Origin: Lachnospiraceae bacterium | Lineage (GTDB): Bacteria > Bacillota > Clostridia > Lachnospirales > Lachnospiraceae | Length of the DNA: 43,586 bases | Assembly (NCBI GenBank): GCA_017550535.1 | Contig: JAFZOS010000023.1 | Coordinates: 1 to 43,586, forward strand | Reading direction: 5' to 3' | Part shown: positions 16,554 through 33,058 of the stretch, piece by piece | How positions within the stretch are numbered: the stretch's first letter is position 1 | Layout of the letters: every line of letters begins with the position of its first letter | The notes under the pieces: generated by a model | The model's input: the letters and a program-made list of their open reading frames with translations, nothing else | Told to the model about the DNA's origin: nothing | Database searches by the model: none | Position numbers and translations under genes: made by a program

Positions 16554-19500
16554 ATGAAAACAAGAAAGATTCTTTCATTGATGCTTGCGGTATTGCTGGG
16601 AGTTACTTCGGTTTCATCCCCGCAGTCGGTTTTGGGAAGCGAACCTGATGATATCTCCGTTAATCTGACAGATATGGATGATATATCCGGCATTGCGGAT
16701 GATATTTCGACCGGTGATGATCTGAGCATTGAACCGGAACAGGCTGAACCTGTTTTTGATGATGCCGGTGACCTTATGGATATAAACAATGATAAGGACG
16801 GTAACTGGTTATCGATCAATCTTGCGAGCAATGGTTTGATAACTCCCATGTTTGACAGTGCTAATGCTCCCACAAAGGCAACTTTCTATTATCAGGTGTA
16901 TATAGTCAAAGGTGATCAGAAAGAGGGTCTTCACTGGTTCAGACGGGATAACATCGAAAATCTGGTACCGTTAAGGATAAGGCAGGCGGTACTTACGGAA
17001 AGCGGCAGGCTTGGTTGTTATATAGAAGTTCAAAATGCAGGCAGGTTTAACGGTAAATATTACAGCAATGAGTTCGATTATACCGTACCGTCAAACAGGC
17101 TTTCAAAACCCTCCAATATACAGATCACTGAAACAGGCGGCAATAAATGGCTTACGTGGGACCGGGTACCCGGCAGTGACGGCTATCTTGTAAGTTTTTT
17201 GCCTGAAGGTGCCGATGAGGACCAGAGTCTGAAATATGATGTGAGCCAAAATAAGTTTGACTTAAGCGGTATTATAAAAGAGTACGGATATCGCAAATAC
17301 ACTGTTTCGGTAACTGCCAATTCCGGTAATATAAAAGAAACCCGATGCAGTGAAGCTTCGTCAGCTGTATGCGATCTTAAGAGCTCTGTGTCCGTTTCTA
17401 TCGATCGGGATGAGATGTGGCTTGCAGCCGGGAAAAAGGCAGTTGTGACTGCTAAGCTTACAAACGCGTTAAATAATGATGACAGAACTCTGGTTTGGTT
17501 AAGCTCCGACTCTTCGGTTGCATCTGTGGATCAGGCGGGCAATGTGACCGGTATAAGTGCCGGAACGGCAACGATCACGGCTGAGACGGCAACCGGTGCC
17601 AGGTCGGTAAACAGCTGTAAGGTAACGGTGTATGATCAGATAACATCGATCGTCCTTGATCCTGCGGCAAAGACGATAGGCACGGGTGATGAGTTTGTTT
17701 TAAAGGCTGATGTGGGTGCATATACACCTACCGGAAGTGCTGTTACGGCAACGGGCAGCGCTATTACGGTTACGGGCAGTTCTGTCGTATATGGTCCCGC
17801 AATATCATTTACACCGTCGAATGACTACATTACGGTCACCAATCAGGGTGACGGTAAGGCGCTTGTCAAAGCTGCAGACAGCGTTCCCAATGGTAAGGTA
17901 ACTTCGCAGGTTATCGTAAAGTCTACCGACGGCAGCAACAGAAGCGCGGTTTGTAATGTTACCATAGGATCGAAGGCTCACAGCATTGCGATCATGGAGT
18001 CTTCCGATAAGCATACCATGATCAAAGGCAGCAAGCTTGTCCTGACAGCAAAGACAGAGCCGGCTGATGCCATGAGTACGGGTGTGACATGGAAAAGCTC
18101 TGACAGCAGTATAGCTGTGGTAGATCAGAAAGGAATTGTAACTGCGCTGTCAGCCGGTGATGTTGTGATCAAGGCAACGGATAATTTCAGCGGGATATCA
18201 AGTACATATGCGCTGAAGGTTATAGTTCCGATCAAAAAACTCGGACTTAATGCAGCAGCGATCACGCTGCATGTCGGAAATACATTTAAACTGATCCCCG
18301 TTCCGTATCCGGCAGATGCCGCGATCATAGGGAATGTGGAATATGCTAAATCCGGTGATAATGACGGATGCATCGAGGTTTCTGCAGATGGCAGAGTCAG
18401 GGCAGTTAAGCTCCCGGACGGTCAGAATAAAGCCGTATTTAAGGTTTCGGTAAAAGCAAAAGATGCAGCCGGTGCGGAAACGACGGCCGTATGTAACGTT
18501 ACAGTAGTTAAGGATGCGGTTAAGGCAGGTAAAGTTATATTGTCGGCAGCAAAGATCTGCATGGGCATCGGAACCGTGACAACGATCAAAGCCTCTGTTA
18601 TACCTGAATGGGCTGATAATAAAGATATTAACTGGAGCGAGAGCGGAGCCGGTAAGGTGATCAGCCTTTCGAAAAACGCAGACGGAAGCATTAAAGTAAA
18701 GGCCCTGAGTGCGGGAGCCGTAAAGGTTACTGCCGAGGCGGCTGACGGGAGCGGCAGAAAAGCGGTTTGTACCGTGATCGTGGGTAATCCCGTTGACAGT
18801 GTACAGATCAAAAACAAGGCAAAGATCAATACGCATCTTGCTGTAGGTAAGGGCGTAAGGCTTGGAGCCATAGTTACGGCGGCAAGCGGAAAGCCTGCAA
18901 ATGTTTCGGTAGTCTGGACAAGCAGCAACCAGACAGTTGCAACCGTCGATCAGAAAGGTACGGTTACCGCAAAGGGTGTCGGTCTTGTGACTATAACGGC
19001 GACAGGTGAAGTACCGGAATCAGGAACGGCAAAATACGATTCGATCACGTTTGATGTGTGTGTTCCGGTAACGAAAGTTACCATAGCAAACAAGGCCGTT
19101 ACAATAAAGGAAGGTAAGTCCGGTATCTTGCAGCCGGTCATTGTAACACCTGCCGATGCAACATATAGATCTATCTCGTGGACAAGCAGTAATGAAAATG
19201 TGGTGACCTTGGCAAAGAATATGACGTTTGACGGAGAACAGCTTAAATTCTATGCGGTCGGTCCCGGCGTTGCAAAGCTGACCGGTGTTACGACAGATGG
19301 CTTCAACAGGAAGGTTGTTGTTGCTGTCAGGGTTCTCGGCAGCATGCATGATGAGGATGTTAAGCTGTCGGTAAAGGCACCAAAGGGTGTTACGGTAGAA
19401 AACAACGGTTCAAAGGATGTTAAAGTATCGGGCCTTAAGAGAAAACAGGCAGTAGCACTCATACCTGCATTGACGCCCAAGGCGGCCGATAAGACATATA

Positions 19501-19643
19501 CATTTGTAAGCAGCAATCCCAAGGTGGCTTCGGTCAACAGGAAGGGCGCGGTTACTGCTGTCGGAACGGGCACGGCAACCATTACACTGATTACTTCGGA
19601 TGGAAGTTATACGGCAAAATGCACAGTGATCATAGCAGAGTAA
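16554..19643 (+). CDS. Exported protein with about eight Big2 immunoglobulin-like repeats
   Basis: Secreted or surface protein of 1029 residues. The signal peptide is about residues 1-29 (hydrophobic core LSLMLAVLLGVTSV). An acidic stretch (about 30-90) follows. A fibronectin-III-like unit (about 185-275) contains WLTWDRVPGSDGYLVSF. From about 280 to the end there are some eight Big2-type units, recognised by recurring pieces such as VWLSSDSSVASVDQAGNVTG followed by GTATIT. The C-terminus ends within the last Big2 unit, without an LPXTG signal, a membrane helix or a clear cell-wall binding motif, so how it stays on the surface is unclear. Big2 proteins act as adhesins or scaffolds. AGGAGGG at 16540-16546 gives a strong ribosome site. 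It starts 24 bases after the kinase stop, without a terminator between. Confidence 0.88.
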   Translation: MKTRKILSLMLAVLLGVTSVSSPQSVLGSEPDDISVNLTDMDDISGIADDISTGDDLSIEPEQAEPVFDDAGDLMDINNDKDGNWLSINLASNGLITPMFDSANAPTKATFYYQVYIVKGDQKEGLHWFRRDNIENLVPLRIRQAVLTESGRLGCYIEVQNAGRFNGKYYSNEFDYTVPSNRLSKPSNIQITETGGNKWLTWDRVPGSDGYLVSFLPEGADEDQSLKYDVSQNKFDLSGIIKEYGYRKYTVSVTANSGNIKETRCSEASSAVCDLKSSVSVSIDRDEMWLAAGKKAVVTAKLTNALNNDDRTLVWLSSDSSVASVDQAGNVTGISAGTATITAETATGARSVNSCKVTVYDQITSIVLDPAAKTIGTGDEFVLKADVGAYTPTGSAVTATGSAITVTGSSVVYGPAISFTPSNDYITVTNQGDGKALVKAADSVPNGKVTSQVIVKSTDGSNRSAVCNVTIGSKAHSIAIMESSDKHTMIKGSKLVLTAKTEPADAMSTGVTWKSSDSSIAVVDQKGIVTALSAGDVVIKATDNFSGISSTYALKVIVPIKKLGLNAAAITLHVGNTFKLIPVPYPADAAIIGNVEYAKSGDNDGCIEVSADGRVRAVKLPDGQNKAVFKVSVKAKDAAGAETTAVCNVTVVKDAVKAGKVILSAAKICMGIGTVTTIKASVIPEWADNKDINWSESGAGKVISLSKNADGSIKVKALSAGAVKVTAEAADGSGRKAVCTVIVGNPVDSVQIKNKAKINTHLAVGKGVRLGAIVTAASGKPANVSVVWTSSNQTVATVDQKGTVTAKGVGLVTITATGEVPESGTAKYDSITFDVCVPVTKVTIANKAVTIKEGKSGILQPVIVTPADATYRSISWTSSNENVVTLAKNMTFDGEQLKFYAVGPGVAKLTGVTTDGFNRKVVVAVRVLGSMHDEDVKLSVKAPKGVTVENNGSKDVKVSGLKRKQAVALIPALTPKAADKTYTFVSSNPKVASVNRKGAVTAVGTGTATITLITSDGSYTAKCTVIIAE
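17730..17792 (+). repeat. Three in-frame 21-bp repeats encoding TGSAV-like heptads
   Basis: Within the second Big2 unit, three 21-base copies begin at 17730, 17751 and 17772 and encode TGSAVTA, TGSAITV and TGSSVVY. The copies differ at several bases but keep the frame and the Thr-Gly-Ser core. This insertion lengthens one loop of the domain and looks like a small expanding coding repeat. Confidence 0.7.
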
Positions 19644-21538
19644 GAAGTACAGGATTTTTAAAAGACGGATATTGGATCCCGACCGCGATCGCGGCCGGGA
19701 TCATTCCGCTTATATCAGGCGTGTATCTTTATACGAATGATGTACTGACGGGATATCCGTGGTTCATTGCGTCAGGTAATTATTCGACGGATGTTTTTCT
19801 TGCATATAAATCATTTGCGCTTCAGATACTGATGGCGGTCATGGCGGCAGTCTTTGTTTACGCGGTGATCAAAACAAAGGAGAAGCCCCGCTTTGACAGG
19901 CCGTTTCTTTTACTTGTTCCTTATCTTTTCTGGGTGGTATTGTCGGGGATCTGTTCTGAGTATCCCGGGCTTTCGTTCGGCATATCCTATGACAGGTTCG
20001 AGCCGGTGGGCGTTGTTGTATCTTATGTGGTCATCTTTGTCTATTCATATTTCTTTGTAAATTCCGAAAGCGTGCTTAAAAAGACCGTATGTGCTGTCTT
20101 CGTTTTTTATGCGCTTATGATGCTGACAGGTGTTTTGCAGGGGATAGGAGCCGATCCCTTTGGTACTGAGTTTATCGGCAGGCTGTTAACGCCTGCAGGT
20201 TTAAGGGGTGATGCGGGACAGCTTATGATAATGAGATACGGAAAAGTGGCTTACTGCACACTGTATAACGAAAACTATACAGGTGTGTATATATCCGTAC
20301 TTCTTCCGGTATGCATAATGATCGTTTCGCTTCCCGTAAAAAGGATCTTTCGTATCGCGGCCGGAATACTTGCGGCATCTTCGCTGTTTGTACTTTACAG
20401 GAGCGGATCGAGGTCGGGCTGGATCGCGCTTTTGATGTCTGCATTGATGATATTTGTTTTAAGGATGATAAAAAAAAGAAGGATCATACCGTTGGCGGTT
20501 ATTGCTGCGGTTTTCGTTATCGGCATTATATCGGCATTGTCGGTACCTGCACTTAGGAGCAGGATTGCCGGCAGGTTATCCGGAAACAGCCAGTCTCCTC
20601 CCGGAAGGATAGTTGATATAGAAACAAACGATGATGAAGTGGTATTTAAGTTCTATTTCGGAAACGAACTCCACTGCAGGTTTGACTTTACCGAAGGCGG
20701 TGAGATAGTACCCGGGTTTTGGGATAAGAACGGCAATGTTCTGCTTGCGTCTTACGAAAACGGTGTTTACAGGCTGGATGAATGTTTTGAGTATGCTTTT
20801 GCTGCCGTAAAAGGTGAACCGACGGGACAGCCCGGCATATATATTGCGTCATTTGTCATTGACAAACAGCAATGGCCGATGACCAATTGCACTGACGGAA
20901 CATATTATTATGTTACATCGGGATTAAACCTTGTAAAGTTCCCGAAGATACGATCGGCAGGCATTTTTCCCGATGGATTTTTAAGCGGCAGGGGCGGCAT
21001 TTGGAACAGGTGTATCCCGCTTCTTAAAAAGCATCTGCTGCTCGGATGCGGTTCAAATCTGTTCATAGTGGATTATCAGCAGGATGACTATATAACAAAA
21101 ACATATTCGGTAGGCTGGGGCAATTATGTATATGATGTCAAGGCACACAGCTTTTATCTGGGTACGTGGATGGAAAGCGGACTTCCCGCATTGCTTTTCA
21201 TTATTGCATTCTTCCTGTATTATATTATTAACGGGGCCCGTTTATACGGAAGCATTGATTTAAAAGACGAAAACCGTATGTATGAATCAAGGGTGGGGCT
21301 TGGAATGTTTGCGGGCTGTATCGCATATATGATCATCTCGTTTGCAAATGACAGTAATGTATGCACCTCACCCGTCTTTTGGGCAGTCTTTGGCATGTCA
21401 TTTGCCGTTAACAAACGGCTTGATATGAGCACGGAAAAAGTATCATCGCCTGCAGATACAGAAGACAGGCCGGGGAGAAATACAGGGCATGGAAAAAATG
21501 ACACGGGAAAAGGCAGAAAAAAGGTTAAGGGAGCTTAG
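19619..21538 (+). CDS. O-antigen-ligase-like polytopic membrane protein (Wzy_C type)
   Basis: Membrane protein of 639 residues with about 10-12 helices. The central part contains the pattern YNENYTGVYISVLLP followed by RSGSRSGWIALL, typical of the O-antigen ligase/polymerase (Wzy_C) family, which joins or polymerises surface glycans on the outer face of the membrane. An extracytoplasmic domain of about 150 residues follows, and then VKAHSFYLGTWMESGLPALL, matching the conserved His-containing loop of the family. The C-terminus is a basic, glycine-rich tail. The start ATG at 19619 lies inside the end of the Big2 gene (25-base overlap); no later ATG precedes the first helix. A glycosyl transfer to a surface polymer or protein is likely. 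The donor is unknown. Confidence 0.8.
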   Translation: MHSDHSRVRSTGFLKDGYWIPTAIAAGIIPLISGVYLYTNDVLTGYPWFIASGNYSTDVFLAYKSFALQILMAVMAAVFVYAVIKTKEKPRFDRPFLLLVPYLFWVVLSGICSEYPGLSFGISYDRFEPVGVVVSYVVIFVYSYFFVNSESVLKKTVCAVFVFYALMMLTGVLQGIGADPFGTEFIGRLLTPAGLRGDAGQLMIMRYGKVAYCTLYNENYTGVYISVLLPVCIMIVSLPVKRIFRIAAGILAASSLFVLYRSGSRSGWIALLMSALMIFVLRMIKKRRIIPLAVIAAVFVIGIISALSVPALRSRIAGRLSGNSQSPPGRIVDIETNDDEVVFKFYFGNELHCRFDFTEGGEIVPGFWDKNGNVLLASYENGVYRLDECFEYAFAAVKGEPTGQPGIYIASFVIDKQQWPMTNCTDGTYYYVTSGLNLVKFPKIRSAGIFPDGFLSGRGGIWNRCIPLLKKHLLLGCGSNLFIVDYQQDDYITKTYSVGWGNYVYDVKAHSFYLGTWMESGLPALLFIIAFFLYYIINGARLYGSIDLKDENRMYESRVGLGMFAGCIAYMIISFANDSNVCTSPVFWAVFGMSFAVNKRLDMSTEKVSSPADTEDRPGRNTGHGKNDTGKGRKKVKGA

Positions 21539-22331
21539 AGAGTATATAAAGCCGTTTGGACGGGTGGCGGTGGCATTTTCAGGCGGGGTTGATTCTTCGC
21601 TTTTATTGTATGCCGCCTTTTTGGAGCTTGGAAATGATGCGGCAGCACTTACGGCATCGATGGATGTGACGCCTGTTGGAGAGGCGGATGATGCCCGTGA
21701 TTTCTGTGAGCGTTATGGCATCACGCAAAAGGTCATTGATATAGACGTATTTGGGATAGAAGGCTTTAAGGAGAATCATACGGACAGGTGCTACACCTGC
21801 AAAAAGGCACTGTTTACGCGGTTTATAAATGAGGCTGAAAGCATGGGGATAAAAGCCGTGCTGGAAGGTTCAAACGCGGATGATAAGGGTGATTACAGGC
21901 CGGGGCTTAAGGCAATTTCGGAGCTTGGCGTTATAAGTCCTTATCTTTCACTGTCCGTTACAAAGGATGAGATAAGGGCAATGGCGGATCTTCTTAAGCT
22001 TGATGTGTTTAATAAGCCCTCAGGTGCCTGCCTTGCAAGCAGGATCCCCTACGGTGATGTGATCACCGTGGAAAAGCTTTATATGACGGGCAGGGCGGAA
22101 AAGCTTATTACGGATATGGGTTTTTCGCGTGTCAGGGTAAGGCTGCATGATTCTGTCGCAAGGATAGAACTTGATCCTGCAGACCTTGCGCGTTTTATTA
22201 AAGATGACGTAAGGATTCCCGTTTATAAGGGCTTAAAGGAGCTTGGGTTTTCATATGTGACCCTGGATGTCCTTGGCTACAGGACCGGAAGCATGAATGA
22301 AATGATAGGGAAGGGTTCGGTTAATGGCTGA
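21489..22331 (+). CDS. larE: LarE-type ATP-dependent sacrificial sulfur transferase
   Basis: Cytoplasmic enzyme of 280 residues of the PP-loop pyrophosphatase group. The PP-loop SGGVDS is at 31-36. It further shows TDRCYTCKKALF, EGSNADDKGDYRPGLKA and FNKPSGACLASRIPYG, the last with Cys181, which corresponds by motif to the sulfur-donor cysteine (Cys176) of Lactobacillus plantarum LarE. LarE adenylates and then sulfurates the pyridinium dicarboxylate precursor of the nickel-pincer cofactor of lactate racemase. No LarA, LarB or LarC is in the window, so here it is an orphan. It overlaps the membrane protein gene by 50 bases and the permease gene by 8, so it is part of the operon. It may sulfurate another substrate; that is inference. 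Confidence 0.88.
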   Translation: MEKMTREKAEKRLRELREYIKPFGRVAVAFSGGVDSSLLLYAAFLELGNDAAALTASMDVTPVGEADDARDFCERYGITQKVIDIDVFGIEGFKENHTDRCYTCKKALFTRFINEAESMGIKAVLEGSNADDKGDYRPGLKAISELGVISPYLSLSVTKDEIRAMADLLKLDVFNKPSGACLASRIPYGDVITVEKLYMTGRAEKLITDMGFSRVRVRLHDSVARIELDPADLARFIKDDVRIPVYKGLKELGFSYVTLDVLGYRTGSMNEMIGKGSVNG

Positions 22332-23481
22332 TAAAAATACGGCTAATGACAGGGGAAGTATGATACAGGCGGCATGTATCGTTGCGGGGAACGGTATAGG
22401 CAGCGGCGTTATGGCCATACCGTATTTTGTTATGCGCGCAGGTATCCTTGGAGGAGTTTTGGCATTTGTGCTTGCGTATATCGTAAGCGTGCTCATGCAC
22501 CTTATGATAGCCGAGCTTATGCTCCACGAAGATAATGTATCGGATATTTTGGGTGTGTTTAACACATATCTGTTTAAGGGCGGGATAGGCAAGGTACTTC
22601 GGATCGTGTTCTTTGTGATCCTCGTGGTCGTGCTTGAAGCCAACCTTGCAGCATATATTTCAGGTGCATCGGACATAATCGTAACATTGCTGCCCGTAAG
22701 TGAAGCAGTTATAAAGACGGCCTTTTATATATTCGCGGCACTTGTTGTCCTGCTCGGGCTTAAGGCTGTTGCCGCAGGTGAGGGAGTGACGGTCATGCTG
22801 ATGGCGGTCATCCTGATAACGGCGATAGTATTTTCGCTTGCAAACATAAACGACAATGTGAGCATAGGATCATGGGGAGGCCTTAAGGATGCTGCCGCGC
22901 TGTTTTCGATGATAATGTTTTCGTTCTCGGCGATATTTGCCGTACCGCAGTCGGTTGAGTATTTAAAGCGCGATACCGTGGCCGTAAGGCATTCCATACA
23001 GCTCGGACTTTTTATAAACCTGGTGTTATCAACCGTAGTGGCGGTATGTACGATCATAACATCAAAAGAGGTTACCGAGATAGCCATCGTAGGCTGGGCG
23101 GATGCGGTGGGAGGAGCCGTCAGGGTACTGGGCTCGCTGTTCATCGTATTTGCGATGCTTACCTCATTCTGGTCGATAGGACTGGCTTCATCCGATATAG
23201 TCACGATACAGACGGGACTTAAAAGCAGGATCGCATTTGCCGTGGCGACCGTTCCCGCATTGCTTATAACCTTCATAAAGGGCAGCGGGTTTATGGGTTA
23301 CCTTAAGATAGTTGGCGGGGCTGTGGCACTCATCATTTCACTGATGGTGATCCCGAGCTTTGTCATATGCATAAGGAAGAACCGCCAGCTTAAGCTTATG
23401 AAGGATATGGAAAAGTCGGGATTAATGGTTGCTTTTGTACTTTTGATGTATCTGGTAATGGCAGTCGGATCTGTATTTTAG
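22324..23481 (+). CDS. Amino-acid permease of the aromatic/serine (HAAAP-like) family
   Basis: Membrane transporter of 385 residues with about 11 predicted helices. The first helix carries the motif GNGIGSGVMAIPYFVMRAG, the hallmark glycine-rich helix of APC-superfamily amino-acid permeases of the SdaC/TyrP/Mtr group. A second broken helix is at FSFSAIFAVPQSVEYL. Length (about 400) fits the family. Substrate is likely a neutral or aromatic amino acid, but sequence alone cannot choose. It overlaps larE by 8 bases and ends 7 bases before the first radical SAM gene, whose ribosome site spans its stop codon. Co-transcription with four radical SAM genes suggests it brings in a precursor or moves the product. 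Confidence 0.82.
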   Translation: MADKNTANDRGSMIQAACIVAGNGIGSGVMAIPYFVMRAGILGGVLAFVLAYIVSVLMHLMIAELMLHEDNVSDILGVFNTYLFKGGIGKVLRIVFFVILVVVLEANLAAYISGASDIIVTLLPVSEAVIKTAFYIFAALVVLLGLKAVAAGEGVTVMLMAVILITAIVFSLANINDNVSIGSWGGLKDAAALFSMIMFSFSAIFAVPQSVEYLKRDTVAVRHSIQLGLFINLVLSTVVAVCTIITSKEVTEIAIVGWADAVGGAVRVLGSLFIVFAMLTSFWSIGLASSDIVTIQTGLKSRIAFAVATVPALLITFIKGSGFMGYLKIVGGAVALIISLMVIPSFVICIRKNRQLKLMKDMEKSGLMVAFVLLMYLVMAVGSVF

Positions 23482-23488
23482 GAGGAAT

Positions 23489-24844
23489 ATGAAGGTTGTT
23501 TTTCTGGCTCCGGCGGGAGCGATGCACAGATATAACGGGATGTTCCATAAGAACCTGCATTATGCGCCGATAACACTGGCACTCCTTGCGGCGCTCATTC
23601 CCGCCGAACTTAACGCGGAGCCTGTCATATACGACGAGACCGCGGAGGCGATACCGCTTGACCTTCAGGCAGACGTTATCTGTATCACCTGTATAACGGG
23701 AACCGCAAACCGCAGTTACCGTTTTGCAGACTGGTTCAGGAGCCGGGGGATACCCGTTATCATAGGCGGAGTACATGCCACCGTTATGCCGGATGAGGCA
23801 AAACAGCATGCGGACTGCGTAATGGTGGGCCTCGGGGATGAGACCTTCCCGCAGGCAATGCGCGACCTTGCGGCGGGACAGCTTAAGGATTTCTATTACG
23901 GTCACTCCTGTGTCGATATTTCAGGGCGCCCGATACCGCGCAAGGACCTGCTTAAGAAGGACAGGTACATAACGCTTAATACGGTTGAATGCGTGCGCGG
24001 CTGCAACCATGCATGCTCGTTCTGCGCTTATCCGACGGCATTCGGCAAGGGCGTGATAACAAGGCCGGTTGAGGATGTTATAGCGGAGATAAAGACGTTT
24101 AAGGGAAGGGTGGTCATATTCCCCGATGTCAACCTCATAGCCGATATAAGGTACGCAAAGGAACTGTTCACAGCGATGATACCGCTGAAAAAATGGTGGT
24201 TCGGCCTTACCACGACGGCGATAGGGCATAACGATGAACTCTTAAAGGTCTTTAAAAAGAGCGGATGCAAGGGCCTTCTTCTTGGATTTGAGTCGGTCAA
24301 CCAGGAAACCCAGAAGGATATAAACAAGGGCGTTAATTCGGTCAATGAATACGAATGGATCATGGAAAAGCTCCATGACCACGGCATACTTGTCATGGGC
24401 TGTTTTGCATTCGGAAGTGATGAGGACGGAAAGGACGTGTTTAGGCGTACTGCTAAACTTTGTCTTAATGCAAAGATCGATCTTCCGAGGTTCTCGATAA
24501 TCACTCCGTTCCCGGGAACACCGTTCTACGGCGAGCTTAAGGAACAGGACAGGATAACCGAGACGGACTGGGCTTTATATGATGTTGAGCATGTGGTATA
24601 CAAGCCTAAGAATATGACAAAAGAGGAGCTTGAAAAGGGCATAGAGGAAGCATGGATGATGTGCTATTCATGGAAGGCCATATTCAAAAGGTTTGACTTT
24701 AAACGCATCAAACGATGGTTCTTCATATATCTTATATGCAACATCGGTTACAGGAAATATGCGAAGAATTTTAACAAATATGATGAGAGAGTGATGACCG
24801 ATAATTCGGACATTCCAAAGGCAGGAGACAGGTGCCCCGGATAA
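23489..24844 (+). CDS. B12-fold radical SAM protein 1 of 4
   Basis: Cytoplasmic iron-sulfur enzyme of 451 residues (COG1032 type). The N-terminal part (about 1-150) has a cobalamin-binding Rossmann fold pattern, with VIIGGVHATVMPDEA, but I see no DxHxxG motif for base-off B12 binding. The radical SAM core carries Cys172, Cys176 and Cys179 (CxxxCxxC), which hold the 4Fe-4S cluster that cleaves S-adenosylmethionine. GFESVNQ follows in the barrel. It differs from the other three copies, with FPDVN in place of DDN after the fifth strand. The basic, hydrophobic C-terminus (about 405-435) may touch the membrane. AGGAGG spans the permease stop. The reaction is unknown. Confidence 0.88.
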   Translation: MKVVFLAPAGAMHRYNGMFHKNLHYAPITLALLAALIPAELNAEPVIYDETAEAIPLDLQADVICITCITGTANRSYRFADWFRSRGIPVIIGGVHATVMPDEAKQHADCVMVGLGDETFPQAMRDLAAGQLKDFYYGHSCVDISGRPIPRKDLLKKDRYITLNTVECVRGCNHACSFCAYPTAFGKGVITRPVEDVIAEIKTFKGRVVIFPDVNLIADIRYAKELFTAMIPLKKWWFGLTTTAIGHNDELLKVFKKSGCKGLLLGFESVNQETQKDINKGVNSVNEYEWIMEKLHDHGILVMGCFAFGSDEDGKDVFRRTAKLCLNAKIDLPRFSIITPFPGTPFYGELKEQDRITETDWALYDVEHVVYKPKNMTKEELEKGIEEAWMMCYSWKAIFKRFDFKRIKRWFFIYLICNIGYRKYAKNFNKYDERVMTDNSDIPKAGDRCPG

Positions 24845-26157
24845 AGATAACATTCATAAAAGTAAATATGATGTACTCAAAGGGGAAGGATGCGCTTAAG
24901 CCGCTTGTATTCCCGATCGTTGAAGCCCTTACTCCGGATTATTGTGAAATAAGCTTTTATGATGAGCGGATAGAGTCACTCCCGGATGAGCTTGATGCCG
25001 ACATAATCGCATTCTCGGTCGAGACATTTGCGGCAAGGCATGCATACGAGCTTGCCGACAGGTACAGGAAGGCCGGGGTAAGGATAGTGATGGGCGGCTT
25101 TCACGCATCGGCCATGCCGGATGAAGTGCTTGAGCATGCGGACACTGTACTTACGGGGGATGCCGAGGAAACATGGCCCGCATACCTTGAGGACGTTAAA
25201 AACGGATGTGAAAAGAGGAGGTATGATTCCAAGAATCAGTGTCCCGTAGCCTATGTAAATAACAATGCACACTGCTTTGAGGGAAAGAGATATCTAAAGC
25301 TCGGCATGATCCAGGCATCAAGGGGATGTAAGTTTAACTGTGATTTCTGCTCGATAAAGAGCCTGTACCCAAAGGGTGTAAGGCAGAAGGATATAGAAGA
25401 TGTTGTAAGGGAGATAAAAAACAGCAGGGAAAAGCTTATCTTTTTTATCGACGATAACCTTTTTGTTAACGAGGATACTGCAAGGGAGCTGTTTAATGCG
25501 ATACGTCCGCTTAAGAAACGCTGGGCCTGCCAGATAAGCATGGACATAGCGTTTAACGACGAGCTGCTGACTCTCATGCATGATTCCGGATGTATAATCG
25601 TGCTCATAGGTTTTGAATCGCTTAACAAAAAGAATCTTGAGATAATGCATAAGAGTGCGAATATCGGTGTTAAGGATTATGAGGCGGCCATAAAGAATAT
25701 ATATAAACACGGTATCATGATATATGCGATGTTCGTGCTGGGTTACGATCACGATACCGCGGATTCCATAAGGGAAACATATGATTTTGCGATGCGCAAT
25801 CACTTTGCGGTCGCAAATTTCAATCCCCTGATGATCCTGCCCGGGACCGCTCTTTATGAGCGCATGAAGGAAAAGGGCTGTTTAAGGTTTGATAAGTGGT
25901 GGCTTGACGATGATTACCGTTACGGCGATGCGATGTTTTATCCTGAGTCCATGACCTGTGACGAACTCATGGAAGGGTGCAGGAAGGCAAGGTATGATTT
26001 TAACACCTTTGGCAATATACTAAAGAGGATGTTTGGCACGCCCGTCAATCACCGCGGGCTGTTTGATTCTGTTGTTTTCCTGCTCATAAACCTTATATCG
26101 CGTTCCGAGATACACAGGAAACAGGGAAGTGCCCTGGGAAACGACAAAAGGCTTTAA
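24832..26157 (+). CDS. B12-fold radical SAM protein 2 of 4
   Basis: Paralogue of the gene before, 441 residues. A B12-like N-terminal domain (about 1-140) contains VMGGFHASAMPDEV. The cluster cysteines are Cys166, Cys170 and Cys173 in SRGCKFNCDFCS. The core continues with FFIDDNLFVNED and GFESLNKKNLE, shared with copies 3 and 4. A C-terminal part with WWLDDDYRYGDAMFYPESMT precedes a hydrophobic stretch (about 410-425). The start is GTG at 24832, overlapping copy 1 by 13 bases, with AGGAG at 24823-24827. No ATG is available before the conserved first strand. Neighbouring copies suggest sequential modification of one substrate or recent gene duplication followed by divergence. Confidence 0.88.
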   Translation: MPRIKITFIKVNMMYSKGKDALKPLVFPIVEALTPDYCEISFYDERIESLPDELDADIIAFSVETFAARHAYELADRYRKAGVRIVMGGFHASAMPDEVLEHADTVLTGDAEETWPAYLEDVKNGCEKRRYDSKNQCPVAYVNNNAHCFEGKRYLKLGMIQASRGCKFNCDFCSIKSLYPKGVRQKDIEDVVREIKNSREKLIFFIDDNLFVNEDTARELFNAIRPLKKRWACQISMDIAFNDELLTLMHDSGCIIVLIGFESLNKKNLEIMHKSANIGVKDYEAAIKNIYKHGIMIYAMFVLGYDHDTADSIRETYDFAMRNHFAVANFNPLMILPGTALYERMKEKGCLRFDKWWLDDDYRYGDAMFYPESMTCDELMEGCRKARYDFNTFGNILKRMFGTPVNHRGLFDSVVFLLINLISRSEIHRKQGSALGNDKRL

Positions 26158-26186
26158 AAGTAAACGGGATCACATGGGAGGATAAC

Positions 26187-27590
26187 TTGAAGATAATCCT
26201 TATTAAACCCAATATAGGGAGGCGCGAGCACAGCCTGTATGTGGATAATGCGAGCATGGAACCGCTGCAGCTTGGCGTCCTTGCCGCGCTCACACCTTCG
26301 GATATCGAAGTTAAGATGTATGATGACCGTCTTGAGAGGATCCCGTATGATGAGAAAGCCGATCTCGTGGCGATCACCGTGGAAACTTTTACGGCAAGGC
26401 GTTCGTATGAGATCGCGGATGAATACCGGAAGCGCGGCACAAAGGTCCTTATGGGCGGCATGCATGTAAAGCTCCTGCCCGATGAAGTTAAGGAGCATGC
26501 GGATTCCATAATGATCGGCGATGCCGAGGATAAATGGGCTAAGATGATAGAGGACCTGCGCGCAGGCTCCCTTAAGGAAGTATATGAATGCAATCCCGTA
26601 TGCATACCGCAAAAGGGCGTGATCACAAGACGCGATATCTATAAAGGCAAGAAGAACATGCCGATATCGCTGATGCAGTTTTCCAGGGGATGCAAATACA
26701 GCTGCAAATACTGCGCGAGCAGCGTCTATTTTGAGCGGCGGCATTTTACAAGGGACGTGGATGAAGTGGTCGCCGAGGTAAAGTCACAGAAAAGAAAGCT
26801 TTTGTTTTTTGTCGATGATAACATAGTAGGTGATAAGGAACGCGCAAAGGAACTTTTCAGGGCGCTGATACCGTTAAAGGTTCGCTGGGTCAGCCAGGGA
26901 AGCCTTGATATGCTCGATGATGATGAGCTTATGACTCTTATGGTAAAAAGCGGATGCCTTGGGCTTGTCATAGGGTTTGAATCCATAAGGCCCGAAAGCC
27001 TTGATTATATGCATAAGGGCGTTAACAAAAAGTTCGTAGGTGATCACTATGCGGATGCCATAGAAAAGTTAAGGCACTACGGCCTTCAGACGTGGGCTGC
27101 GTTTACGATAGGGCATGATACGGATACGCTTGAGTCCATAGAAGCGACTTACAGGTTCGCAAGGAAGAATAAGTTCACGTTTGCAGCGTACAACATACTG
27201 ATGCCTTATCCGGGTACCGAGCTGTATGAACAGTTAAAGGAAGAAGGACGGCTGCTGTATGACGGAAAATGGTGGCTGCATGAACAGTACCGGTTCAATT
27301 ATACCGCTTTTGTCCCGAAAAACATGACGCCTGATGAGCTGACTGAGGCCGGTTTTGAGTGCAGAAGGCGGTTTAACAGCTTAGGTTCGATACTTTACAG
27401 GCTGTTTGAACCCCGTACCAATTTAAGGAATCCGGTAAGGTTTTTCACTTATCTTATATACAATCCTGTATTTAAGAAGGAAGTGTTCGAAAAACAGGGC
27501 ATGACCTTCGGATGCAGGGAAAAGGACGAAAATGAAGGTGACGTTCATACTTCCTGCGATAGGGAAGAAGAAAAACGAAAAATATCTTAA
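26187..27590 (+). CDS. B12-fold radical SAM protein 3 of 4
   Basis: Third paralogue, 467 residues. The start is TTG at 26187 with GGGAGG at 26176-26181; the first strand KIILIKPNIG begins at once, so no later start is likely. The N-terminal domain has VLMGGMHVKLLPDEV. The cluster cysteines are Cys169, Cys173 and Cys176 in SRGCKYSCKYCA. FFVDDNIVGDKERAKELF and GFESIRPESLDYMHKG follow. The segment WWLHEQYRFNYTAFVPKNMT matches the equivalent part of copies 2 and 4. A charged tail of about 20 residues extends beyond the others and overlaps the next gene by 59 bases. Confidence 0.88.
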   Translation: MKIILIKPNIGRREHSLYVDNASMEPLQLGVLAALTPSDIEVKMYDDRLERIPYDEKADLVAITVETFTARRSYEIADEYRKRGTKVLMGGMHVKLLPDEVKEHADSIMIGDAEDKWAKMIEDLRAGSLKEVYECNPVCIPQKGVITRRDIYKGKKNMPISLMQFSRGCKYSCKYCASSVYFERRHFTRDVDEVVAEVKSQKRKLLFFVDDNIVGDKERAKELFRALIPLKVRWVSQGSLDMLDDDELMTLMVKSGCLGLVIGFESIRPESLDYMHKGVNKKFVGDHYADAIEKLRHYGLQTWAAFTIGHDTDTLESIEATYRFARKNKFTFAAYNILMPYPGTELYEQLKEEGRLLYDGKWWLHEQYRFNYTAFVPKNMTPDELTEAGFECRRRFNSLGSILYRLFEPRTNLRNPVRFFTYLIYNPVFKKEVFEKQGMTFGCREKDENEGDVHTSCDREEEKRKIS

Positions 27591-28860
27591 GTCCTGGCTT
27601 ATGGAGCCGCTTACGATCGCTGTTATGAACACGCTTTTACCGGACGATATTGAGCGTGAATTCTATGATGACAGGGTGGAGGGTATCAATTATGATACAA
27701 AGACCGACCTTGTCTTAATTACGGTTGAGACCTATACGGCAAAGAGGGCATATCACATCGCCGGGGAATTCAGGAAACGGGGCAGGAAGGTAGTGCTCGG
27801 CGGATATCATGTGACTCTGATGCCGGATGAAGCGGCGCAGTACTGCGATGCGATAATGATAAACAACTGCGGCGAGAACATGCGCGAGCTTATTAAGGAT
27901 GCCGCTGCGGGTGCCCTTAAGGAAAGGTATATAGGGAAGCCGTGTATTGATTACAGGATAGCTGACCGCTCGATATATGCCAGGCAGCAGAAGAAATACC
28001 TGCCCGTGTCTTTGGTCGAAACGGGACGCGGCTGCTATCATAACTGTGAATTCTGTTCGATCGCGAAATATTATGATTCTAAATATATACACCGGGATGT
28101 GGCCGATATAATCGCCGAGATGAAGTCCTGTAAGCACAAGCTTTTCTTCCTAGTTGATGACAGCATCTTTTCCGACAAGGCATTCGCGCGCGAGCTGTTT
28201 GCCGAGATAAAGAAGCTTAAGGTGACATGGACAACGCAGATAACCCTTGATATAGCAAGGGATGATGAGACCCTGCGCCTTATGCGTGAGAGCGGATGCA
28301 CGATGGTGCTAATCGGATTTGAGTCCATTAACCGGGAAAATTTAAAGCAGATGAACAAGGAATGGACGCAGCGCCTGGGTGAGCGCGACGAGCTAATTGA
28401 GAAGATACACGCAGCCGGCATAAGCATATATGCTTCGTTCGTATTCGGATTTGATGAGGACACTGAGGAAAGCTTTAAGACCACGCTTGAATTTACAAGG
28501 AAACATCAGTTTTTCGTTATAGCGTTCAATCATCTGCTGACGTTTCCCAACACGCCTACCTACAATTCATTCCGTGATGAGGGCAGGCTGATATGCGATA
28601 AATGGTGGCTGCAGGAGGGTTATACCTTCGGGACGATATCATTTGAGCCAAAGAGGGTGAGCGCCGAAGAATTAAGCGCACTGTGCAGGAAGTACAAAAA
28701 GGAATTCTTCAGGTTCGGTTCCATAGTACACAGGGGTGTTACCTGCTTTAAGCGCACAAAGAACCCGCTTATCAACTTTGCCTACTGGTTTATAAACATC
28801 CTGTTTCATTTTGAGGTGGATAAGCGCATAGGGATACCCGTGGGCGAAAATATGGATTAA
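27532..28860 (+). CDS. B12-fold radical SAM protein 4 of 4
   Basis: Fourth paralogue, 442 residues. The N-terminal B12-like domain contains VVLGGYHVTLMPDEA. The cluster cysteines are Cys168, Cys172 and Cys175 in GRGCYHNCEFCS. The core has FFLVDDSIFSDKAFAREL and GFESINRENLKQMNK, and the C-terminal region WWLQEGYTFGTISFEPK precedes a hydrophobic tail. The gene begins 59 bases inside copy 3, with AAGGA before the ATG, so translation of both is probably coupled. Together with copies 2 and 3 it forms a closer subgroup than copy 1 does, judged by the DDN and WWL motifs. Confidence 0.88.
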   Translation: MKVTFILPAIGKKKNEKYLKSWLMEPLTIAVMNTLLPDDIEREFYDDRVEGINYDTKTDLVLITVETYTAKRAYHIAGEFRKRGRKVVLGGYHVTLMPDEAAQYCDAIMINNCGENMRELIKDAAAGALKERYIGKPCIDYRIADRSIYARQQKKYLPVSLVETGRGCYHNCEFCSIAKYYDSKYIHRDVADIIAEMKSCKHKLFFLVDDSIFSDKAFARELFAEIKKLKVTWTTQITLDIARDDETLRLMRESGCTMVLIGFESINRENLKQMNKEWTQRLGERDELIEKIHAAGISIYASFVFGFDEDTEESFKTTLEFTRKHQFFVIAFNHLLTFPNTPTYNSFRDEGRLICDKWWLQEGYTFGTISFEPKRVSAEELSALCRKYKKEFFRFGSIVHRGVTCFKRTKNPLINFAYWFINILFHFEVDKRIGIPVGENMD

Positions 28861-28890
28861 GAGTAAGGCCGCTACGGGTGAGGGACAAAC

Positions 28891-29952
28891 ATGGGATTTG
28901 AATTTGCCGCGCGGGAGGATGCGGAAGGCATACTTAGGATAATGGAGGAGGATACGGCTCCGGGCGGGCTCAGGCTCCTGTATACAAGGAGGGATGATCC
29001 TCTTATTTCCTTCCTTTCGGAGAGTCATGAGTCGGCAGTCGGCGTCATAAAAAAGGACGGCCGTGTCATTGCGACTATAGCTGCGATTCCTCGGCTTATG
29101 TACATAAACGGCCGTAAGTCAAGGGTATGCTATGTCACTAACATGAAGCGCCTGCCGGGCGTTGATATACAGCTTAACTGGTATGAGATGTTTGAAAAGA
29201 TGTGTAAAAAGGTTAACTGTGATATCTATTTCTGCTCATTGATAACCGGTAATGACGGCGTTGAACGCATGCTTGGTAAAAAGCGAAAGTTTATGCCGTA
29301 TTCCGTTAAGATGACAGGCTATAAGACATATATAATAAGTCCTTCGGTTAAGATAAAGGCAGCTGCAGCGGGGGTTGAGTTTGTGCGTGCCGTAAAGGAT
29401 GATGAGGAAGGACTTGTGCGGTTCCTTAATGAAAACGGCAGGAAGCGCAATCTTTTTCCGGTGTTTGATAAGCTCTCGGACTTAGGTGACTTAAGGGCGG
29501 ATGACTTTTACCTGCTTAAGAGGGACGGTAATATAGTCGCTGCGGGAGCGTTATGGGACAGGAGAAACGTTAAACAGTATGTACTGATAAGGTGCAGCGG
29601 CATATATACATGGATAAGAAGGTTAAACGCAGTTATCTCAAAGCTTGGTTACATCACTCTTCCGAAGGACGGACAGGCGGCTGATTTTGCCTTTATCTCA
29701 TTCCTTACGGCAAAGGATGATGATGCGGAGCTTTACAGGTATTTACTTAAGATGATATGCGCATCGGCGGATGACCGGGCGATGCTGGTCACGGGGACCG
29801 ATGTGTCAAACCCAAAATACGGAGTACTTGAAGGCATTCGTTCCGTATCGTTTACAAGCGGGATAAACGAGATCATAATGACCAATATTGACAAAAAGGT
29901 GCCGGAACGCTTTGACGGCGGTAATTTGGAGCTTGAGTGCGCGCTGTTGTAG
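28891..29952 (+). CDS. Protein with two GNAT-like acyltransferase domains
   Basis: Cytoplasmic protein of 353 residues. The first part (about 1-150) has the strand-helix order of a GNAT N-acetyltransferase: an N-terminal AAREDAEGILRIMEE helix, then SAVGVIKKDGRVIATIAAIP and VCYVTNMKRLPG, where the acyl-CoA pyrophosphate loop would be. The second half (about 165-320) repeats a similar plan with FYLLKRDGNIVAAGALWDRR, but lacks a clear acyl-CoA loop and may be structural. It begins 30 bases after the fourth radical SAM gene and precedes the hydrolase gene by 43 bases. It probably acts in the same pathway, adding an acyl or aminoacyl group. The family assignment rests on pattern alone. Confidence 0.6.
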   Translation: MGFEFAAREDAEGILRIMEEDTAPGGLRLLYTRRDDPLISFLSESHESAVGVIKKDGRVIATIAAIPRLMYINGRKSRVCYVTNMKRLPGVDIQLNWYEMFEKMCKKVNCDIYFCSLITGNDGVERMLGKKRKFMPYSVKMTGYKTYIISPSVKIKAAAAGVEFVRAVKDDEEGLVRFLNENGRKRNLFPVFDKLSDLGDLRADDFYLLKRDGNIVAAGALWDRRNVKQYVLIRCSGIYTWIRRLNAVISKLGYITLPKDGQAADFAFISFLTAKDDDAELYRYLLKMICASADDRAMLVTGTDVSNPKYGVLEGIRSVSFTSGINEIIMTNIDKKVPERFDGGNLELECALL

Positions 29953-29995
29953 GGAACGGGAGTGTGCATCTGAGGGATCTTTAGGTGGATCATAT

Positions 29996-31105
29996 ATGGG
30001 AAATATAACCGATTACGTAACTGAATACGGGGATAAGACATTGGATGAGCTGCCGTTTAATGAGGTGGATTCGCTCATTCTGTCGCAGTTTGCCTATCTT
30101 AAGTTCGATAAGCCCCTTGAAGCGGCTGACCATACGATGACTATTGGCGAGCTTAAGGACAGCCCCGAGTATGAGCAGCTGTTTACCGATACCAGGTTTG
30201 AGAAGGTAAACCGCGGCCTTTTTGAAGCCATGGCGGCAAGCAGGAGATATTCAAACGTCAAGCTGTTTGAGTACGTTAACATGGTCGATGCCCAGTGGGA
30301 GATACAGTTTTCGGCGATAACGTGTATGTTCGAAAACGGATATATATATGTTGCGTACAGGGGGACCGACGAAACGCTGACCGGATGGAAGGAGGACTTC
30401 AATATGGCGTTCATCACGCCGATCCCGGCCCAGACAAAGGCGGTCCAGTATCTTAACCGGATCATGGCCGGAGTACGGAGTGAAGTGACTCTCGGAGGGC
30501 ATTCAAAGGGCGGTAACCTTGCGGTATATGCGGCCATGAAGTGTAAGCCGGATTTCCGCGAAAGGGTGCGGCTTGTTTATTCGCATGACGGTCCGGGTTT
30601 TGCCGAGGGCGTGCTTGACAGCGATGATTTTATGACCGTAAAGGACAGGATAAGGAAGACGGTGCCCAGGTCTTCGATAGTCGGTATGGTCCTCCAGACA
30701 CAGGAAAACTACGAAGTTGTAAGGTGCAGGCATTTCGGGGTTTTGCAGCATGATCCGTTTAACTGGATAGTGGAGGGCACGGAGTTTAAGAAAGCCGACA
30801 ACATTCACAGGCATACGTATGTGTCGGATGCCTCCGTTAACAGGTGGGTCAGCAACATGGATTACGAGAAACGCCAGGAATTTGTCGAGCTGCTGTTTGA
30901 GATAGTAAGCGGTTCCGGGGCCTCTGACCTTAATGATTTCGTGGCAGACCCGTTAAAGATGGGGCGTGGGATGCTTAACGCGATCGAAGCCATGGATGAG
31001 GAGGATAAGCGTATCCTTCTTAATATAATAAAGGAGATGTCGGCCGCCGTTAACGCAACGATAAAGGAATTCATGGCGGAGCGTGTGGCGGATATGTTCA
31101 CATAA
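29996..31105 (+). CDS. Mbeg1-like (DUF2974) alpha/beta hydrolase
   Basis: Predicted lipase-like hydrolase of 369 residues. The middle shows YIYVAYRGTDETLTGWKEDF (oxyanion region), followed by the nucleophile elbow GGHSKGGNLA with Ser170 as the probable catalytic residue and SHDGPGFA shortly after. These are typical of the Mbeg1-like/DUF2974 family common in Firmicutes. There is no signal peptide or membrane segment. I chose ATG 29996, with AGGTGG at 29983-29988; an upstream in-frame start at 29888 falls inside the previous gene. It is the last gene before a strong promoter. Substrate is unknown; family members are thought to act on lipids or esters. Confidence 0.85.
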   Translation: MGNITDYVTEYGDKTLDELPFNEVDSLILSQFAYLKFDKPLEAADHTMTIGELKDSPEYEQLFTDTRFEKVNRGLFEAMAASRRYSNVKLFEYVNMVDAQWEIQFSAITCMFENGYIYVAYRGTDETLTGWKEDFNMAFITPIPAQTKAVQYLNRIMAGVRSEVTLGGHSKGGNLAVYAAMKCKPDFRERVRLVYSHDGPGFAEGVLDSDDFMTVKDRIRKTVPRSSIVGMVLQTQENYEVVRCRHFGVLQHDPFNWIVEGTEFKKADNIHRHTYVSDASVNRWVSNMDYEKRQEFVELLFEIVSGSGASDLNDFVADPLKMGRGMLNAIEAMDEEDKRILLNIIKEMSAAVNATIKEFMAERVADMFT

Positions 31106-31177: not shown

Positions 31178-32020
31178 ATGAAAAAGATATCAGCTAAAAG
31201 GGTTATTTGTCTTGCACTTTCGCTTGTTCTTACGGCGGGACTGCTCTCAGGATGCGCAGGCGCGGCAGGCAAGGGCGGCAATGATAAGACTATAAAGATC
31301 GCGGCTTCGCCGGTTCCCCATGCGGAAATACTTGAGGAAGCAGCCAAGATACTCGAAGGTTACGGATATAAGCTTGAGATCACCGAGTTTGAAGACTATG
31401 TACAGCCCAACCTCGTGGTGGAATCGGGCGAATTTGATGCTAACTACATGGAGCATGTTCCTTATCTTAACAGCTTTAACGAGGAACAGGGTACCCATCT
31501 TGTCGATGCGGGTGACATCCATTATGAGCCCTTCGGCATTTATCCCGGCACCAAGAAAACACTTGACGAGATAGCGGACGGTGATACGATCGCGATCCCC
31601 AACGATACGACCAATGAGGCAAGGGCACTCCTGCTTTTACAGGATAACGGCCTCCTTAAATTAAAAGACGGTGCTTCACTTACGGCTACTGTAAACGATA
31701 TTACCGAAAATCCTTACAATATCGAGTTTGTCGAGCTTGAAGCAGCACAGGTTGCAAGGGTCGTAAACGAGGTTTCGTATGTGGTACTTAACGGTAACTA
31801 CGCACTTGAAGCGGGTTACTCGGTAGGACATGATTCTATCGCATACGAGGCCACCGATTCGGTTGCGGCTCAGACATATGTAAATATCATAGCCGTTCTC
31901 GAAGGCCATGAGAATGATGAAAAGATAAAAGCGCTCGTAAAGGCGCTTAAGTCAGACGATATAAAGAAGTTCATCGAAGACAAGTATGACGGTGCCGTTG
32001 TCTTCTATGAGGGCAAATAG
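31178..32020 (+). CDS. metQ: MetQ-type methionine-binding lipoprotein
   Basis: Extracytoplasmic binding lipoprotein of 280 residues of the NlpA/MetQ family. The signal peptide ends in LLSGC with lipid-carrying Cys26. The binding domain has the family pattern IAASPVPHAEIL at the start, FDANYMEHVPYLNSFN and IAIPNDTTNEARALLLLQ, typical for MetQ. It delivers methionine (L-, and in some species D-) to MetNI. AGAGGGAG (31165-31172) lies before the ATG, and the promoter TTGTAT/TATAAT is just upstream. metN follows after 24 bases. A role with another small amino acid or a methionine derivative cannot be excluded. Confidence 0.93.
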   Translation: MKKISAKRVICLALSLVLTAGLLSGCAGAAGKGGNDKTIKIAASPVPHAEILEEAAKILEGYGYKLEITEFEDYVQPNLVVESGEFDANYMEHVPYLNSFNEEQGTHLVDAGDIHYEPFGIYPGTKKTLDEIADGDTIAIPNDTTNEARALLLLQDNGLLKLKDGASLTATVNDITENPYNIEFVELEAAQVARVVNEVSYVVLNGNYALEAGYSVGHDSIAYEATDSVAAQTYVNIIAVLEGHENDEKIKALVKALKSDDIKKFIEDKYDGAVVFYEGK

Positions 32021-32044
32021 GTATTTTAAGCTGCGGGAGTCGAA

Positions 32045-33058
32045 ATGAGTGATATTGAGATAAAAAATCTTACCAAAAGGTTTGAAGCGGGCGGACATGA
32101 GATCATCGCATTAAATGATGTCAGCTTAAGCATCAAAAAGGGCGAGATATACGGGATAATAGGTATGTCCGGAGCCGGGAAGAGCACACTGGTGCGTTCC
32201 ATAAACTATCTTGAGGTGCCCGACGAGGGTCATGTCCTTATAGACGGTGTTGATCTGTCGGGGCTTTCGGATAAGGAGCTTCGCATAAAGCGCCGTGATA
32301 TCGGTATGATATTCCAGGGCTTTAACCTGCTCGAGCAGAGGAACGTTATTGACAATGTCTGCTTTCCGCTCGAGATATCCGGCATGCCCAAAAAGAAGGC
32401 AAGGGTAAAGGCCCGTGAACTGCTCGAGACGGTAAACCTTGCGGATAAGGAAAAGTCATATCCTTCGCAGTTGTCGGGAGGCCAGAAGCAGCGTGTGGCA
32501 ATAGCCCGTGCGCTTGCAACAAACCCCGGCATACTGTTATGCGACGAAGCCACGAGTGCGCTCGATCCGCAGACTACCGAGTCCATCCTCTCGCTGCTTA
32601 AGGAGATAAACGAAAAGCTTAATATCACGATAGTAGTGATAACGCATCAGATGTCGGTGATCACCGATATCTGTACAAGGGTTGCGATAATAGAAAACGG
32701 TCGTCTGGTGGAGGAAGGCCTTGTAGAGGAGATATTTGCGTCTCCGAAGACCGATGTGGCAAGGGACTTGATCGCCAATAAGAAGAGCAGTTACGCTCCC
32801 GTGGAAAGCCTTAAGTCCGAAAGGGTGATAAGGATAGTCTTTTCCGAGAATTCTGCGTTTGAACCCGTTATATCGAATGTGATCCTTAAGTATAACACTC
32901 CGGTAAACATCCTCGGTGCGGATACCAGGAATGTCGGCGGCAAGGCCAAAGGTGAGATGCTTTTGGGGCTTCCCGATGATGAGGACATGGGAAGGAGCAT
33001 AATAAATTACTTAAAGGAGAGGGGACTCAGCGTTACGGAGGTGAGAGAGGGTGTTTGA
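32045..33058 (+). CDS. metN: MetN methionine ABC transporter ATPase
   Basis: Cytoplasmic ATPase of 337 residues. It has Walker A GMSGAGKST (40-48), Q-loop IFQGFNLL, signature LSGGQKQRVAIARAL, Walker B ILLCDEATSALDP and switch His in VITHQM. The C-terminal part (about 260-337) forms the ACT-like NIL domain that, in known MetN proteins, binds internal methionine and shuts down import. Length agrees with MetN (about 340). It overlaps metI by 8 bases. The LLCDEATSALDPQT string is especially typical of MetN. Confidence 0.95.
   Translation: MSDIEIKNLTKRFEAGGHEIIALNDVSLSIKKGEIYGIIGMSGAGKSTLVRSINYLEVPDEGHVLIDGVDLSGLSDKELRIKRRDIGMIFQGFNLLEQRNVIDNVCFPLEISGMPKKKARVKARELLETVNLADKEKSYPSQLSGGQKQRVAIARALATNPGILLCDEATSALDPQTTESILSLLKEINEKLNITIVVITHQMSVITDICTRVAIIENGRLVEEGLVEEIFASPKTDVARDLIANKKSSYAPVESLKSERVIRIVFSENSAFEPVISNVILKYNTPVNILGADTRNVGGKAKGEMLLGLPDDEDMGRSIINYLKERGLSVTEVREGV

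Follow-up and report, generated by a model that had tools for sequence, protein, structure and literature searches.

Layout of the gene row

We analysed the 43,586-nt contig JAFZOS010000023.1 of a Lachnospiraceae bacterium, hereafter the window (the whole of contig G000:C40, from a 2.74-Mb genome that is 98% complete and split into 103 contigs). At positions 19619–31105, nine genes follow one another, all on the + strand. Part of this row, 22324–29952, is a conserved unit of an amino-acid permease (Perm), four B12-fold radical S-adenosylmethionine (SAM) enzymes (R1 to R4) and a GNAT-like protein. The original prediction had described the entire row as a ten-gene operon that might serve a single pathway. 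Its compact layout is real, but nine genes were counted, and the conserved unit is smaller than the reported operon, which is a conserved core mixed with bystanders.

Perm (22324–23481) matches PF03222, the Trp/Tyr-permease family (E = 3.8e-17). It is followed by R1 (23489–24844), R2 (24832–26157), R3 (26187–27590; TTG start preceded by GGAGG) and R4 (27532–28860). The CxxxCxxC motif (alignment A1) and the Radical_SAM domain (PF04055) are present in all four enzymes; R2, R3 and R4 are 30%, 35% and 32% identical to R1, respectively. The B12-binding-type N-terminal domain (PF02310) scored above the Pfam cut-off in R1, R2 and R3, and reached 25.5 bits against a cut-off of 32.1 in R4. The enzymes probably use cobalamin; according to PMC13331322, the residues beneath the cobalt differ among known enzymes.

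The unit ends with the GNAT-like gene (28891–29952), whose 353-aa product is the hub of the set. By itself, this protein has no Pfam or NCBIfam match. Among 58 aligned GNAT-like proteins, which include the unmatched window protein, 27 match PF00583 and 14 match PF13527 (E ≤ 0.01), and the PF00583 matches support the GNAT assignment. The protein had been described as a double GNAT; a second GNAT half is weakly supported, with hhalign probabilities of 42% in one direction and 15% in the other.

Neighbouring genes in the row overlap by 50, 8, 13 and 59 bp or are separated by 7, 29, 30 and 43 bp, the last value presuming that the final gene starts at ATG 29996 (the open reading frame (ORF) tool gives TTG at 29888). 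The coordinates therefore bear out the earlier description of genes on one strand that overlap or are at most 43 bases apart. The noted lack of a visible terminator also held: counting both strands, none of the terminator-like sites (14 compared with 10.1 ± 3.0 in shuffles) or promoter-like sites (17 compared with 20.0 ± 4.3) stands out. This absence is not proof of a single transcript. Scanning the window against Rfam at gathering thresholds gave zero matches, so no B12 riboswitch was found in it.

Conservation of the unit and its two architectures

An R2 search (E ≤ 1e-30) of 145 relatives, the window genome included, returned matches in 21 genomes, 11 of which belong to the same genus (37 genomes in the sample). 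In seven other genus genomes (L037–L040, L042–L044), Perm-R1-R2-R3-R4-GNAT are arranged codirectionally. Several variants were observed: a hydrolase-like gene lies between Perm and R1 in G003 and G032, a fifth radical SAM gene, R0, is inserted between R1 and R2 in G002, and R3 is interrupted in G035 (L039:11791-13188) and G023 (L045:4458-5822), reflecting either assembly error or gene decay. Contig ends cut the cluster in G036 and G023. In G027, a genome 59% complete, the order is Perm-R1-R4-GNAT, with R1 and R4 abutting and R2 and R3 missing. Locus inspection of the non-genus matches covered G045, G058, G106, G113 and G114, leaving G057, G108, G117, G123 and G136 outside it; the set was present in G114 only.

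To look beyond the genus, a profile of eight R3 proteins was run against a collection of 84,980 species, in which 174 relatives were confirmed and the best 80 kept. Seven of these 80 loci are same-genus contigs that also feature in the genus comparison, and the R3 query biases the selection towards loci that hold R3. With orthologues assigned by best BLASTP match to the window proteins, R1, R2, R4 and GNAT were all present in 48 out of 48 well-flanked loci (at least 5 kb upstream and at least 8 kb downstream of R3), and R2 was found in all 77 loci whose upstream flank measured 1.5 kb or more. Since R0 also matches R1 best, we recounted with R1 at ≥42% identity and obtained the same 48/48.

The association was also visible in whole genomes. 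In samples of the order (295 genomes) and the class (391 genomes), both including the window genome, the GNAT profile (E ≤ 1e-20) matched 5 order genomes and GNAT was present in 4 class genomes. The R3 profile (E ≤ 1e-80) matched 7 order genomes, namely the five GNAT genomes plus G244 and G343, which match more weakly and have no GNAT; the match in G202 is R4 rather than R3. Of the 29 class genomes matched (E ≤ 1e-70), 25 have no GNAT, and their R3-profile scores are ≤325 bits. Scores above 600 bits were confined to the window genome, G532 and G727, all of which have GNAT. R1 and R4 orthologues are present in all eight distinct GNAT genomes of the two samples. Together with the 48/48 well-flanked loci, this strongly supports placing the four radical SAM genes and GNAT in one pathway, and the set, which recurs in many anaerobic bacteria, is almost certainly one conserved pathway unit.

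What accompanies this core differs between loci. Using tblastn (E ≤ 1e-8) on 81 related loci (the 80 R3 loci and one from Citrobacter, described below), we detected GNAT in 66, a second GNAT-like protein (U234) in 56, a GH3 amide synthetase in 54 and Perm in 19. Perm and GH3 never co-occur (0/81), and eight loci have neither; these are mostly short or cut at the cluster, but L122 and L134 span ∼21 kb. There are hence two mutually exclusive architectures, A, marked by the permease, and B, with GH3 and U234, so that the permease of the proposed pathway belongs to one of the two. U234 was found in 4 of the 295 order genomes, and hhalign linked it to GNAT at 55% probability (E 1e-4), which is suggestive only. 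When profiles of GNAT and U234 were run against the PDB, the matches were likewise weak; the three obtained for the GNAT alignment (A4) are acetyltransferase-named (E 0.08–0.95).

The other genes of the row do not travel with the core. They encode a Wzy_C O-ligase-like protein (19619–21538; PF04932), LarE (21489–22331; TIGR00268, 280.8 bits against a cut-off of 150) and an Mbeg1-like protein (29996–31105; PF11187), which is presumably hydrolase-like. Their identities, like those of the permease and the four radical SAM enzymes, are backed by Pfam or NCBIfam matches and agree with the earlier reading. In that reading, LarE would supply sulfur, and the hydrolase and O-ligase would help complete one pathway. 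Tight packing in the window is in its favour, as is one other genome, G014, that retains both Wzy, immediately before the permease, and Mbeg1. However, G014 has no LarE, and across the 81 loci LarE occurs in none, Wzy in one and Mbeg1 in two, both of the same genus. On the locus comparison, we reject these three as pathway parts: Wzy and LarE are local neighbours and Mbeg1 a lineage-specific one. The full-pathway explanation is largely refuted and highly improbable, and with LarE outside the conserved unit the proposed sulfur-transfer step has lost its support. LarE is known from the lactate racemase cofactor pathway. No other lar genes were found by general domain scans of the scanned window genes; LarC is encoded elsewhere in the genome, and the sole Lar_N match is a ferredoxin-like protein that we read as not LarA (LarB was not searched for).

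The surroundings of the row contain two further groups of genes. Upstream, at 16554–19643, a 1029-aa and apparently secreted Big_2-repeat protein is encoded by a gene whose end overlaps the Wzy_C gene, and the same pair adjoins the cluster in G014. Downstream of the Mbeg1-like gene, at 31178–33713, are genes for an NlpA-type lipoprotein, an ATPase and a permease that have the look of a MetQNI transporter; the first two also adjoin the cluster in G014.

Four adjacent radical SAM genes could also point to the maturation of a ribosomally synthesized and post-translationally modified peptide (RiPP), and the ApyD and rSAM_ocin_1 models are among the weak matches of these enzymes. The core genes overlap or are 7, 29 and 30 bp apart, which leaves no space for a precursor gene between them. 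When ORFs of at least 80 aa near up to 101 loci were clustered, only GH3 and U234 recurred inside the set besides the core (six further ‘inside’ members were read as antisense ORFs over U234). To our knowledge, GH3 enzymes are not RiPP enzymes, which we also count against this explanation, and we regard it as quite unlikely.

Modules, spread and a fifth radical enzyme

The four enzymes are distinct lineages. In a tree of 152 radical SAM proteins, drawn from the window and 33 of the 81 loci, R1 (33 rows), R2 (34), R3 (34), R4 (32) and R0 (16) formed separate clades with Shimodaira–Hasegawa-like approximate likelihood ratio (SH-aLRT) supports of 96, 100, 100, 99 and 100, respectively. In the Caldilineaceae and Citrobacter loci, the protein at the R4 position branches elsewhere than in the R4 clade, and the fifth Citrobacter enzyme joins R0, possibly as a long-branch artefact. 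According to their record labels, the hosts include Bacillota, Synergistota, Chloroflexota, Deferribacterota and Gastranaerophilales, in addition to the Citrobacter portucalensis plasmid; a large number of these records are metagenome bins and could be mislabelled. Separate, supported clades across phyla indicate an ancient set of different enzymes.

The Citrobacter plasmid (IncFIB, IncFII; L135:7686-19781) carries five radical SAM genes, GNAT, GH3 and U234, along with PAP2 and fatty acid desaturase genes. By megablast, this version matched only its own record in the plasmid collection and had no near match in the E. coli collection. Its occurrence across phyla and on a plasmid suggests horizontal transfer of the cluster. 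The enzymes might also serve a cofactor or a tRNA or protein modification pathway, for which there are weak matches with the BzaD and MiaB-type models. The patchy distribution (the cluster is present in 11 of the 37 genus genomes) and the plasmid copy instead favour an accessory product, and we consider a cofactor or modification pathway very unlikely.

The fifth enzyme, R0, belongs to the set. In Butyrivibrio and in many loci of architecture B, it is one of the clustered genes, and it is present in 45 of the 80 R3 loci and 31 of the 48 well-flanked ones. In the window genome, the R0 orthologue is a B12-fold radical SAM gene on another contig (G000:C37:52480-53766; also delimited as 52480-53769, L051:8481-9770) that shares 64% identity with the R0 in the cluster of L066. 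R0 orthologues (E ≤ 1e-190) occur in 6 of the 37 genus genomes, namely in 6 of the 11 with the cluster and in none of the 26 without it, a co-occurrence with a chance of 2e-4 if genomes were independent, which those of one genus are not fully. In five of the six, R0 is on a contig other than that of the cluster, these being draft assemblies.

Pairwise identities of the five proteins (60 loci that have all five, and the window) correlate at r = 0.90–0.98, a value reached in none of 999 permutations, and are highest for R1-R4 (0.98), although shared ancestry alone would also produce such a correlation. Identities drop between architectures A and B to different extents, with between/within ratios of 0.52 for GNAT, 0.69 for R4, 0.75 for R1, 0.80 for R2 and 0.85 for R3, the most conserved member. 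Such a pattern would be expected if GNAT, R4 and R1 acted nearest the step supplied by GH3/U234 or the permease.

Partial versions of the cluster suggest how the set is built. GNAT, GH3 and U234 occur in Acinetobacter baumannii and Burkholderia arboris close to each other, and the 16.6 kb retrieved around them contained no radical SAM gene of this type; both relatives are confirmed by the GNAT profile (8.6e-33 and 6.4e-28, respectively). The Acinetobacter row (L136:5129-12808) reads HlyD-like, EmrB-like, U234, GH3, TolC-like and GNAT, with the transporter names read from ORFs, whereas in Burkholderia a Rieske oxygenase gene follows GH3. R1-R4-GNAT without R2 and R3 are found in G202 and G506, both with U234-GH3-R1-R4-GNAT and R2/R3 unmatched in our searches, and in the permease version of G027. 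G727 carries R4-GNAT and R2-R3-U234-GH3-R1 on separate contigs. A U234-like gene of Azospirillum brasilense (L138:7962-8849) had no GH3, GNAT or radical SAM neighbours in the 16.7 kb fetched. Judging from a small number of cases (two, three and many, respectively), there seems to be an order of dependence in which GNAT/GH3/U234 come first, then the core module R1+R4, then the R2+R3 pair, with R0 optional.

Candidate products of the pathway

The acyl-transfer logic that had been proposed survives and gains strength from the GH3 enzymes of architecture B. The GH3 of G114 matches PF03321 with 152 bits (cut-off 23.6), and the TSGS and GEKL stretches, which have motif roles in GH3, are conserved in an alignment of six GH3s (A6), the Citrobacter enzyme having TGGS. 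For the one architecture B GH3 that was scanned (L086), OlsH was the sole NCBIfam match at E ≤ 0.1. According to PMC12493201, on the ornithine-lipid pathway of Singulisphaera, OlsH links fatty acids with ornithine, while the alpha/beta hydrolase OlsI adds the second acyl group. There, too, a bacterial GH3 joins an amino acid and an acyl acid, and OlsI has a parallel in the hydrolase-like gene that separates Perm from R1 in G003 and G032. Unlike in that pathway, the GH3 of architecture B is accompanied by GNATs and by four or five radical SAM enzymes. We found no description of the cluster in a search of the open-access literature, with partial coverage, for the cluster, its parts and its chemistry. 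In the literature on membrane-spanning lipids, including PMC11868695, nothing matched this gene set.

The best explanation as a whole, which we favour tentatively at somewhat under an even chance, is a mobile modular cluster whose radical enzymes tailor an amino-acid-derived amide. The scaffold part (GH3, U234 and GNAT in architecture B, GNAT and the permease in architecture A) would make such an amide, or import and N-acylate it. R1 and R4 would then carry out the first radical SAM reactions on it, probably assisted by cobalamin; the R2-R3 pair would follow with another round, to which R0 could add an optional one. The product would be N-acyl-amino-acid or aminolipid-like, with C-C or C-H modifications for which aerobes would use oxygenases. 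This is our best single guess given the OlsH precedent and the PAP2 and desaturase genes on the Citrobacter plasmid, and an N-acyl-amino-acid type of amide is possible, if slightly less probable than the scheme as a whole. More broadly, the product is most likely a small molecule or lipid that derives from an amino acid and is still undescribed.

A related but less probable idea, to which we give roughly one chance in four, is that the enzymes work on membrane-lipid tails, where they would couple, cyclise or methylate the acyl chains, much as happens in the synthesis of membrane-spanning, tetraether or ladderane lipids, while GH3 and the GNATs attach a head group. HpnJ is the best NCBIfam match of all four enzymes (91–106 bits, at most 105.5), TIGR04072, ‘lipid biosynthesis B12-binding/radical SAM protein’, is also among the best scores, and PAP2 and desaturase genes adjoin the Citrobacter version. 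The clear hydrophobic C-terminal segments of R0 and R2 might also suit a membrane substrate. However, every family score is far under its cut-off (577.6 for HpnJ; at most 95.4 bits against 481.35 for the BchE model), and no chain named tetraether synthase was among the PDB matches at E ≤ 1e-4, a comparison that contained no Mss sequence. HpnJ and BchE share the order of a B12-binding and then a Radical_SAM domain, but here each set holds four to five different paralogues. The closest solved sequences are AprD4 (6fd2), 9ccb (presumably MgmA, going by the associated paper) and 6wte (which we take to be TsrM); the similarity spans part of the chain, and their known substrates differ. Lastly, the Acinetobacter version lies beside HlyD/EmrB/TolC-like genes, which would fit an exported small molecule.

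Several observations weigh against the tailoring of an amide as well. GH3 had 0 matches in the window genome and U234 was not found there, so the amide step in this organism hangs on GNAT alone. The L086 GH3 scored 47 bits where the OlsH model (NF052613) asks for 620, and no NCBIfam family matched the GH3 of Acinetobacter. None of the radical SAM enzymes attains the cut-off of any listed NCBIfam family, and the C-terminal hydrophobic segment is less pronounced in R4 and was not detected in R1 or R3, whose lack of it also speaks against work on lipid tails. The order of steps is deduced from gene presence, and one of the three cases that lack R2/R3 is the 59% complete genome G027.

That four to five distinct radical enzymes have been kept together across phyla suggests several hard reactions on one substrate, and the nested modules predict which intermediate each deletion would leave. 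Judging by record titles, cultured carriers include Butyrivibrio sp. NC2007 and CB08, Sedimentibacter saalensis DSM 13558, Peptoclostridium litorale DSM 5388 and Ruminococcus flavefaciens 007c, making the product of this undescribed gut and rumen pathway directly testable. In a bolder form of amide tailoring, which we consider doubtful, the cluster would be an O2-independent line, extendable step by step, of up to five ancient B12-fold radical SAM specialists (added as modules: R1+R4, then R2+R3, with R0 as an extra option) acting on a GH3/GNAT amide core, with the window lineage having given up the GH3 core and importing the scaffold through the permease. If true, rumen and gut Clostridia, Gastranaerophilales, Synergistota, Chloroflexota and an enterobacterial plasmid would encode undescribed natural products or aminolipids.

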